Part shown: positions 15,675 to 21,607 of the stretch, in pieces
How the letters are laid out: the number at the start of each line of letters is the position of its first letter
Position numbering within the stretch: position 1 is the first letter of the stretch
Made by a program: the position numbers and the translations under genes
The notes under the pieces: model-generated
What the model was told of the DNA's origin: nothing
The model's input: only the letters and a program-made list of their open reading frames with translations
Databases searched by the model: none
NCBI GenBank assembly: GCA_003250355.1
Contig: QKGS01000005.1
Location: 62,001-126,000, forward strand
DNA: 64,000 nucleotides
Direction: 5' to 3'
Origin: Bacteroidota bacterium
Lineage (GTDB): Bacteria; Bacteroidota; Bacteroidia; Bacteroidales; SZUA-534

Positions 15675-15905
<231 letters not shown>

Positions 15906-15915
15906 AAAATCAATT

Positions 15916-15947
15916 CACCATGTAGCGGTTGGCTGCATGGTGTTTTT
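15916..15947 (+). terminator. Terminator-like hairpin between atpE and atpF
   Basis: An 11-bp stem (15916-15926 with 15932-15942, one G-U pair), a 5-nt loop GGTTG and a run of five T residues. By sequence it looks like an intrinsic terminator, but it lies inside the ATP synthase operon. It may act as an attenuator that lets more atpB-atpE than downstream message accumulate. Confidence 0.75.
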
Positions 15948-16004
15948 CTGAACTTTTGAACATTTTCCGGCTCAAGCCGAATTGAACATTAAAAATATAA
16001 TACT

Positions 16005-16499
16005 ATGGATTTAGTAACACCGGCAATAGGAATGATTTTTTGGACAGTATTTACATTTATATTATTACTGATCCTATTACGTGCATTTGCTTGGAAGCCA
16101 ATTTTAAATGCGGTAAACAGTAGAAATAAAAGTATTGAAGAGGCACTTAACTCTGCCGAAGAGGCTAAAGCTGAAATGAAAAAGCTTTATTCGCAGAATG
16201 AGGAAATACTTAAAGAAGCTCGAGCAGAACGTGACAAAATTCTTAAAGAAGCTCGCGATTTAAAGAATAAGGCAATTGAAGAAGCAAAAGAACAAGCTAA
16301 AACAGAAGCAGAATCTATTATTGCTGCGGCTAAAGCTGCCATTGATAATGAGAAACGCTCAGCTATTAATGAAATAAAGAATCAGGTGGCTAAACTTTCG
16401 GTCGATATTGCAGAAAAAGTTATAGCTCGCGAGCTTAAAGACAAGAAGAGTCAGGATGAATTAATTAACGACTTGCTTGACAAAACTAATATAAATTAG
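16005..16499 (+). CDS. atpF: ATP synthase F0 subunit b
   Basis: Peripheral stalk subunit. One N-terminal membrane helix (residues 5-28, IGMIFWTVFTFILLLILL) is followed by a long charged coiled coil with repeated KEAR and AKAE segments, then a C-terminal region ELKDKKSQDELINDLLDK that contacts delta. 164 residues is normal. It starts 99 bp after atpE, beyond the terminator-like hairpin. Confidence 0.95.
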   Translation: MDLVTPAIGMIFWTVFTFILLLILLRAFAWKPILNAVNSRNKSIEEALNSAEEAKAEMKKLYSQNEEILKEARAERDKILKEARDLKNKAIEEAKEQAKTEAESIIAAAKAAIDNEKRSAINEIKNQVAKLSVDIAEKVIARELKDKKSQDELINDLLDKTNIN

Positions 16500-16527: not shown

Positions 16528-16565
16528 TCACTACTCATATCTCATATCTCACTACTCATATCTCA
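16528..16565. repeat. Direct repeat in the atpF-atpH spacer
   Basis: TCACTACTCATATCTCA occurs twice exactly (16528-16544 and 16549-16565), separated by TATCT. With the flanking CATATCTC unit it makes most of the 79-bp spacer repetitive. Function unknown. Confidence 0.85.
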
Positions 16566-19683: not shown

Positions 19684-20640
19684 ATGCCGAATATATTAGT
19701 AACAGGAGGAGCAGGTTTTATTGGAAGCGCAATAGCTGAAAAGCTTATTGCCGACAGCAAAAACTATGTAGTAATAGTTGATGATTTGTCGACCGGTAAT
19801 ATAGGTAAGCTTCCGAAACTACCAACGCTTAACTGGCGATTTATAAAAGCCGATTGTAACAATTATCAGGAAATGGCTCCTATAATGACTTCGTATCAGT
19901 TCGATTATGTTTTTCATTTAGCAGCGGTTGTAGGAGTTAAAAGAACACAAAAGTATCCGGTTAAGGTTTTAAAAGATATCGACGGAATTAAAAACATACT
20001 TTTATTGTCAAAAAACACTACTGTTAAAAGGGTTTTCTTTTCATCGTCGTCGGAAATATATGGTGAACCATTTGAGATACCTCAAAATGTTTATACTACT
20101 CCATTAAATAGCCGTTTGCCCTATGCTATTGTAAAAAATGTTGGAGAGGCATTTATGCGAAGCTATTATCAAGAGTATGGTTTGCAGTATACTATATTCA
20201 GATTTTTCAATACTTATGGACCAAAGCAAAGTAAAGATTTTGTAATTAGTAAATTCCTGATTGCAGCACTCAATAACGATGCTATTACCATTTATGGCGA
20301 TGGTCAGCAAACCCGTACTTTCTGTTTTGTCGATGACAATGTTGACACGTGTATAAAAACATTAACTGAAAATAAATGTGTTAACGATGTTATAAATATT
20401 GGCGGAAACCGGGAGATAACAATACTTGAATTGGCCGAAATAGTTATTAAGGTTACCGGTTCAAAGTCGAAGATAGTTCATTTACCACCTTTAAAAGATG
20501 GTGATATGCGCCGACGCCAGCCCGATAATTCTGCAATGAAAGAGATTTTGGGGCGCGATTTAATTGTAGTAGAGGAAGGAATAAAAAGGATTCTTAATGA
20601 AGGTCTTTTTGAGTTGAATATTGATGACGATGATATATAA
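19684..20640 (+). CDS. NAD-dependent nucleotide-sugar epimerase/dehydratase
   Basis: Short-chain dehydrogenase acting on a nucleotide sugar. The Rossmann motif GGAGFIGS is at residues 7-14, the serine of the catalytic triad lies in SSSSEIYG, and the YxxxK pair in YAIVK. The overall pattern fits UDP-glucose 4-epimerase or UDP-glucuronate decarboxylase, but the substrate cannot be read from the sequence. 318 residues. It is placed inside the atp cluster, 10 bp after atpG, and overlaps the next gene by 20 bp, so all are probably on one transcript. A link to prenyl-linked glycan synthesis with its neighbour is possible (inference). Confidence 0.88.
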   Translation: MPNILVTGGAGFIGSAIAEKLIADSKNYVVIVDDLSTGNIGKLPKLPTLNWRFIKADCNNYQEMAPIMTSYQFDYVFHLAAVVGVKRTQKYPVKVLKDIDGIKNILLLSKNTTVKRVFFSSSSEIYGEPFEIPQNVYTTPLNSRLPYAIVKNVGEAFMRSYYQEYGLQYTIFRFFNTYGPKQSKDFVISKFLIAALNNDAITIYGDGQQTRTFCFVDDNVDTCIKTLTENKCVNDVINIGGNREITILELAEIVIKVTGSKSKIVHLPPLKDGDMRRRQPDNSAMKEILGRDLIVVEEGIKRILNEGLFELNIDDDDI

Positions 20641-21607
20641 TATAGAAGAGTTAAGTATTGAAATAGAAAGGAATATAACTCGGATAAACTGGGGAAAACA
20701 ACCTGAAGAACTGTATAAACCTATTGAGTATATATTAGGGAGTGCAGGTAAAAGAATAAGGCCTTTGCTTACATTAATGGCTTGTAATATGTTCTCTGAC
20801 AATATTGAAAATGCAATATCGCCGGCTATTGGTATTGAGATGTTTCATAATTTTACCCTCTTGCACGACGACCTTATGGACGATGCCCCGGTTCGTAGAG
20901 GTAATGAAACAGTACATTTGAAATGGAATGCCAATACAGCGATACTTTCAGGCGATGCAATGATGGTTGAAGCATACAGATTTATTTGCGAAAGCCCGAA
21001 TCAATACTTAAAAAGCATACTTGCTATTTTTAATGAAACAGCACTGGGAGTATGTGAGGGACAAATGCTCGATATGCAGTTCGAAAACCGGAATAATGTT
21101 TCTGAGGACGAATATATTGAAATGATTCGCCTTAAAACATCGGTGCTTATTGCGGCAAGTTTGCAGATAGGAGCTATTATTGGCGGAGCATCGGAAAGTA
21201 ATGCTAAATTGTTATATGATTTTGGCATAAATTTGGGACTGGCTTTTCAATTGCTCGACGACTGGCTCGATACATTCAGTAACCCTGAGGTATTTGGCAA
21301 ACGTACCGGTGGTGATATTGTAGAAAACAAGAAAACATTTTTGCTTATAAATGCTTTAAAATTAGCCGACAATAAGCAAAAAACGGAACTACAAAGTTGG
21401 ATTGCAAAGACCAATTTTAATGAAGAAGAAAAAATAAATGCCATAAAAAGCATTTATGAAAAGTTGAAAATTGGTGAGATAGCTTTGCTAAAAGCAGAAG
21501 AGTTTTCAGTAAAGGCATTTGATTGTTTAAATAAAATTGATGTTCCGGAAAGCAGAAAAAAACTACTTTTAGAACTAGGAAAAAACTTATTAAAAAGAGA
21601 TAAATAA
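20621..21607 (+). CDS. Polyprenyl (isoprenyl) diphosphate synthase
   Basis: Trans-isoprenyl transferase that elongates allylic diphosphates with isopentenyl diphosphate. Both aspartate-rich motifs are present: DDLMDD after LLH (first) and DDWLD in FQLLDDWLDTF (second), together with GKRIRP near residue 45. 328 residues fits octaprenyl or similar chain-length enzymes for quinones; product length is not certain. The ATG at 20621 overlaps the epimerase by 20 bp; a second in-frame ATG at 20627 is equally possible. It sits just before three palindromic repeats and atpD. Confidence 0.9.
   Translation: MMTMIYNIEELSIEIERNITRINWGKQPEELYKPIEYILGSAGKRIRPLLTLMACNMFSDNIENAISPAIGIEMFHNFTLLHDDLMDDAPVRRGNETVHLKWNANTAILSGDAMMVEAYRFICESPNQYLKSILAIFNETALGVCEGQMLDMQFENRNNVSEDEYIEMIRLKTSVLIAASLQIGAIIGGASESNAKLLYDFGINLGLAFQLLDDWLDTFSNPEVFGKRTGGDIVENKKTFLLINALKLADNKQKTELQSWIAKTNFNEEEKINAIKSIYEKLKIGEIALLKAEEFSVKAFDCLNKIDVPESRKKLLLELGKNLLKRDK

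Follow-up and report, generated by a model that had tools for sequence, protein, structure and literature searches.

The window, i.e., the whole 64,000 nt stretch of DNA that was analysed, comes from a genome of 3.7 Mb and carries an ATP synthase operon. The gene order assigned by Pfam is a ParA/NUBPL-type ATPase, atpB, atpE, atpF, atpH, atpA, and atpG, followed by an epimerase, a polyprenyl synthetase, and then atpD. The open reading frames (ORFs) of the NAD-dependent epimerase and the polyprenyl synthetase (19684-21607) lie on the same strand, overlap by up to 20 bases, and split the ATP synthase gene set between atpG and atpD. A direct repeat, CACTACTCATATCTCA, is present in the atpF-atpH spacer (16529-16544 and 16550-16565). 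We were particularly interested in the junction between atpE and atpF, which shows the following features:

15693..15905, + strand: atpE, ATP synthase subunit c, 70 aa; ORF with Pfam PF00137 (E 3.3e-17), directly upstream of the hairpin
15903-15905, + strand: stop codon of atpE
15916-15926, + strand: 5′ arm of the hairpin, CACCATGTAGC, from sequence reading, fold, and covariation
15925-15926, + strand: G-C, the last two bases of the 5′ arm, which form the conserved R-C before the loop
15927-15931, + strand: pentaloop GGTTG, conserved (GRUUG in the class consensus), on the closing pair C15926-G15932
15932-15942, + strand: 3′ arm of the hairpin, GCTGCATGGTG, from sequence reading, fold, and covariation
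15943-15947, + strand: terminator-like T-run TTTTT 3′ of the stem, present but less constant in relatives
16005..16499, + strand: atpF, ATP synthase subunit b; ORF with Pfam PF00430 (E 1.6e-29), downstream of the hairpin

An earlier, sequence-only reading had described an 11-bp stem with a 5-nt loop and a five-T tail between atpE and atpF, and this was confirmed at 15916-15947; the hairpin is real. CACCATGTAGC and GCTGCATGGTG form 11 pairs, including six G-C pairs and one G-U pair. The stem base at 15916 lies 10 nt past the atpE stop, and the stem ends 62 nt ahead of the atpF start. The fold of a 71-nt segment was estimated to be -20.3 kcal/mol, compared with an average of -12.06 over shuffles (z -3.09), and none of 200 shuffles was as good. 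Two sequence features of an intrinsic terminator are present, a stable stem-loop that contains G-C pairs and a U-rich tract right after the stem. Terminator-like sites were also counted in the region as a class, and showed no clear excess (10 versus 7.7 ± 2.8 in shuffles); among these ten sites, the atpE hairpin has the longest stem. The seven other hairpins found in the window by the same detection rule have loops that differ from GRUUG. Between the hairpin and atpF, two copies of a direct repeat, TTGAACATT (15956-15964 and 15982-15990), flank a small hairpin CGGC-TCAA-GCCG (15968-15979). Neither the repeat nor the small hairpin at 15956-15990 was seen in the inspected atpE-atpF spacers of family members.

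The lack of a clear excess of terminator-like sites would be in line with a hairpin that arose by chance or belongs to a dispersed repeat family. A covariance model of the hairpin, R1, was run on the window's genome with an E limit of 10. One match was obtained, the atpE hairpin itself (E 1.5e-4; 150 of the 545 first-look candidates were scored). A REP-like family would show many copies per genome, compared with this one match among the scored candidates, and the loop motif CGGTTGG was little enriched in the same genome (320 versus 266 for the reversed control). The repeat reading was rejected on this criterion. The exact 11-mer AACGGTTGGTT was also tried as a marker in 149 class genomes; it stayed mostly at the reversed-control level and was of no use.

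A search of 296 phylum genomes with R1 (E limit 0.1) gave 52 matches in 48 of them, where up to about 30 matches are expected by chance. The matches were concentrated behind atpE: 34 of the 52 share the strand of the atpE match and lie 13-41 nt beyond its 3′ end, and 26 of the 28 best matches (E 1.6e-4 or better) are at this position. All 34 belong to class Bacteroidia (34 of the 73 class genomes sampled, by hand count), and an R1 match at atpE was found in none of the 223 genomes of the phylum sample outside the class. Moreover, the 11 out-of-class atpE loci that were inspected contained no CGRTTGG hairpin. Of the 18 matches away from atpE, 10 overlap ORFs that encode 80 aa or more. Two others, L140 (genome G297, E 6e-5) and L141 (genome G066, E 1.6e-4), are strong and sit at position about 2001-2029, each flanked by convergent ORFs; in the genome of L140, atpE and atpF are separated by just 12 nt (locus L165). 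The strict R1 search misses copies. Among the class genomes in which R1 found nothing at atpE, 29 were inspected; about nine without coordinates, and G289, which has no atpE match, were left out. GRUUG hairpins were present in 14 of the 28 readable ones, and their stems were often shorter or bulged.

Conservation of the junction was analysed from the gene outward. atpE was searched in 60 relatives, with a match in 52, and in the contigs of named genomes (80 loci kept). The spacer behind atpE was readable at 128 of 130 loci; L049 and L086, in which atpE was unreadable, were dropped. Spacers from 28 of the 29 further class genomes, picked for having no R1 match at atpE, were added (L166 was unreadable). 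Stems with 7 or more pairs were found in 132 of these 156 spacers, 18 spacers were under 28 nt, and six had no 7-pair stem. The loop was exactly 5 nt in 118 of the 132 hairpins. Among these five-base loops, 112 end in G, 104 of them closed by C-G. The full motif C[GRUUG]G was present in 89 (68 GGUUG and 21 GAUUG), and another five GRUUG loops had a G-C closing pair, bringing GRUUG to 94 of 118. These frequencies are lowered by a few other-phylum loci among the 156 (L075, L080, L115, L127, and L130). A loop-blind first pass, in which one hairpin, the best local one, was kept per spacer, recovered C[GRUUG]G in 76 of the 108 spacers that bear a hairpin. In the draft genome of L005, an in-frame TAG was seen inside the atpE match, perhaps a sequencing or assembly error.

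Across the class, stem length is mostly 8-18 bp. The stem starts at a median of 10.5 nt 3′ of the atpE stop (80 copies) and ends at a median of 35 nt ahead of the atpF ATG. The latter distance would suit an element for translation of atpF, or a barrier against translational coupling from atpE to atpF. However, it ranges from 20 to 87 nt, and folds of the spacers, with atpF codons excluded, reveal no common pairing that involves the start of atpF, so that a role in atpF translation is considered improbable. The sequence-only reading had suggested that the hairpin may be a transcriptional attenuator, an idea that would be refuted if close relatives lacked the stem. Both the stem and its place are kept, and the attenuator survives this check.

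Covariation of the stem was then scored, over 12 flanking pairs, in 69 distinct copies whose selection rested solely on the loop motif CGRTTGG; copies truncated at a contig end (L010, L017, and L064) and exact duplicates were left out. Pairing was observed in 91.4% of the cells, compared with 59.3% after shuffling. Two-sided change occurred at 11 of the 12 stem pairs (290 such cells versus 88 in shuffles), and the covariation score was 0.855, compared with 0.241 for shuffled pairs and at most 0.213 when the partners were slid. Compensatory base changes, by which membership of conserved structured RNA motifs is recognised, are thus found in this stem. In the same loci, 118 other CGRTTGG sites occur on both strands; one of these extends to more than 4 pairs, and it lies in L049, whose atpE is unreadable. 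The pair adjoining the closing pair was A-U (47) or G-C (22) only in the 69 rows, indicating that the fixed tip reads R-C-[GRUUG]-G-Y.

Constancy of the loop was measured in a separate set of 79 rows, chosen by stem score only and blind to the loop letters. The loop columns contain 0.78-1.44 bits of information and the closing pair 1.3 bits, while the outer ten columns of each arm contain 0.02-0.71 bits. Mean pairwise identity was 0.75 for the loop with its closing pair, against 0.35 in the outer stem. Place, fold, compensatory change, loop conservation, and the presence of about one copy per genome are thus shown, and they are best explained by a cis-acting RNA element in the atp mRNA that has been inherited throughout class Bacteroidia with a variable stem and a fixed tip, 5′-R-C-[GRUUG]-G-Y-3′. 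Chance is ruled out by the retention of the hairpin, compensatory changes included, in this spacer throughout Bacteroidia, and with the repeat counts given above, an accidental hairpin or a repeat family member is an extremely improbable explanation.

The tip is not invariant. Other pentaloops at the atpE junction include GUUAG, AUUAG, GCAUG, AAUGG, ACAGG, AAAGG, GCUUG, and ACUUG, nearly all of which end in G, and UUCG-type (TTCG) loops were found in L097, L103, and L170. GUUAG, AUUAG, GCAUG, AAUGG, and ACAGG seem to be clade-specific and occur in several families (loci L094, L102, L067, L068, L070, L098, L114, L171, L172, and L179). In Prevotella-like and Dysgonomonadaceae loci, and in L165, the spacer is short or shows no such hairpin, and the operon junction is still present. 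Since some families have other loops at this place, the GRUUG sequence is not needed everywhere. The loop variants and the hairpin-less loci suggest that the hairpin probably predates the exact loop sequence and that it can be lost.

The tail was compared in 74 copies. T makes up 75-79% of the first three bases past the outermost G-C pair and falls to about 40% by position 8; at least five T in eight were counted in 51 copies, and the tail was weaker in the other 23. Upstream of the stem, A makes up 63-69% at the first four positions, so that the U-rich tail can pair into the stem. The enrichment of U directly after the G-C core makes partial termination at the atpE hairpin plausible. The attenuator that had been proposed is therefore upheld in part. 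It agrees with the conserved stem and place and with the U-rich tail of most copies, but less well with the weaker tail of the remainder. Moreover, the best-conserved part of the hairpin, which had gone unnoticed in the sequence-only reading, as had its spread over the class, is the loop sequence, and a plain attenuator does not need it.

This point bears on the reading that the hairpin is a plain internal intrinsic terminator or 3′-stabilising stem that has no partner, its loop being kept as a stable cap or by slow evolution of the junction. The U-rich tails are in its favour, as are the TTCG-type loops that substitute for GRUUG in three loci and the fact that this kind of element is known from Clostridia. 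A stable cap also agrees with the nearest-neighbour model, in which the 64 pentaloops of the form GNNNG, set on a C-G pair, share the top rank in stability. Stability could account for the conservation of the first and last G. For the R-U-U between them the energy model offers no explanation, and stability was rejected as the only cause of the conserved loop on this account. In addition, the large majority of five-base loops are GRUUG even though 64 loops rank equal and the stems are at about 35% identity, and the seven other window hairpins bear other loops. We regard a partnerless terminator or stabilising stem as possible but rather unlikely.

A partner of the loop was looked for within the operon. 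Complements of the loop, which could form a pseudoknot or an operon-internal pairing, were searched in the flanking atp loci, and no conserved position was found among 42 loci. A hairpin followed by a U-tail is the usual 3′ end of small RNAs, and the atpE hairpin might accordingly form the end of a small RNA released from the atpBE transcript and serve as its seed, its GRUUG loop then base-pairing with distant targets. The typical form and the unpaired state of the conserved loop would agree with such a role. On the other hand, the loop varies between some clades, and no complement is conserved within the atp loci; a small RNA is given as little credence as the atpF translation element.

The simplest reading of the conserved GRUUG tip suggests that it is recognised by a putative trans-acting partner. 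This predicted partner would probably act together with partial termination or with 3′-end protection of the atpBE mRNA. In the mechanism we propose, the hairpin would set the 3′ boundary of the atpB-atpE message, as part of the polymerases would stop at the U-rich tail, and/or 3′ exonucleases would be blocked after cleavage. The message for subunit c would then exceed that for atpF-H-A-G. Less certainly, the tip may be read by a trans-acting partner, a protein or, less likely, an RNA, which would strengthen or relieve the effect. The short distance between the atpE stop and the stem start also makes translation-sensitive termination possible; a ribosome finishing atpE could, speculatively, cover the stem base. 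The explanation as a whole, a cis element that bounds the atpB-atpE message and whose tip is read by a putative partner, is given a probability of about 0.5. A further extension is offered tentatively, as it is more doubtful. The GRUUG tip may be the site of a dedicated Bacteroidia RNA-binding factor that senses the state of the cell and switches termination or decay at the hairpin, thus setting the ratio of the atpB-atpE rotor to the rest, and the hairpins would then form a new class-wide regulatory RNA family.

How about ten c subunits per single a or gamma are made from one operon is a classic question. In E. coli, the dosage of subunit c is controlled mainly by translation. A hairpin at the c/b junction, with a fixed tip and about one copy per genome, offers a defined target for the stoichiometry question in a whole class, and the retention of the tip across Bacteroidia hints at a putative RNA-binding factor. 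The combination of a free stem and a near-fixed tip (GGUUG/GAUUG) points to a so far undescribed candidate control element for ATP synthase production in Bacteroidia.

The element was compared with known RNA families. No Rfam family was matched in the window at the gathering cut-off, and the sub-threshold matches near the site were weak (SNORD51, E 0.61; rli40, E 0.4). The ATPC RNA motif of cyanobacteria is a structured RNA in the ATP synthase operon, near and upstream of the subunit c gene. The atpE hairpin resembles it in its location in an ATP synthase operon but lies after the subunit c gene, and it matches no Rfam family. Literature text searches gave no description of the atpE hairpin; a main motif survey from 2017, which may list it, was outside their scope. 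Nothing on ATP synthase was found in PMC4423207. The GUCCY-hairpin of Bacteroidetes and Proteobacteria (PMC2864571) is likewise a Bacteroidetes hairpin motif, set beside the atpE hairpin by its table listing and not by sequence; the terms ATP synth, atpE, and ATPC are absent from the main text of that source.

Operon-internal hairpins that set stoichiometry are described in Clostridia (PMC9045158, PMC8219983, PMC10311766, as available in part), so that the atpE hairpin would be of a known kind; neither Rfam nor the literature searched yielded a class-wide version of it at atpE with a sequence-conserved cap. The stem-loops of selective RNA processing and stabilisation (SRPS), which are predicted to include those of ATP synthases in Clostridium, are likewise 3′ stem-loops in operons for complexes with unequal subunits (PMC8219983, in part). 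They differ in coming from another phylum, and the atpE hairpin has a conserved loop. Another parallel is provided by the internal intrinsic terminators in ABC importer operons of cellulolytic Clostridia (PMC9045158, in part), where a stem-loop likewise lies right after the over-produced gene. These have long stems and a U-rich tail that contains fewer U than canonical terminators and is partly paired upstream. The tail and stem of the atpE hairpin fit such a weak internal terminator as measured in Clostridia, and also the SRPS stem-loop. However, the Clostridia stem-loops are described, in the available parts of PMC9045158 and PMC10311766, without conserved sequence, those of PMC9045158 being unconserved beyond G-C richness. 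The loop conserved throughout class Bacteroidia therefore sets the atpE hairpin apart.
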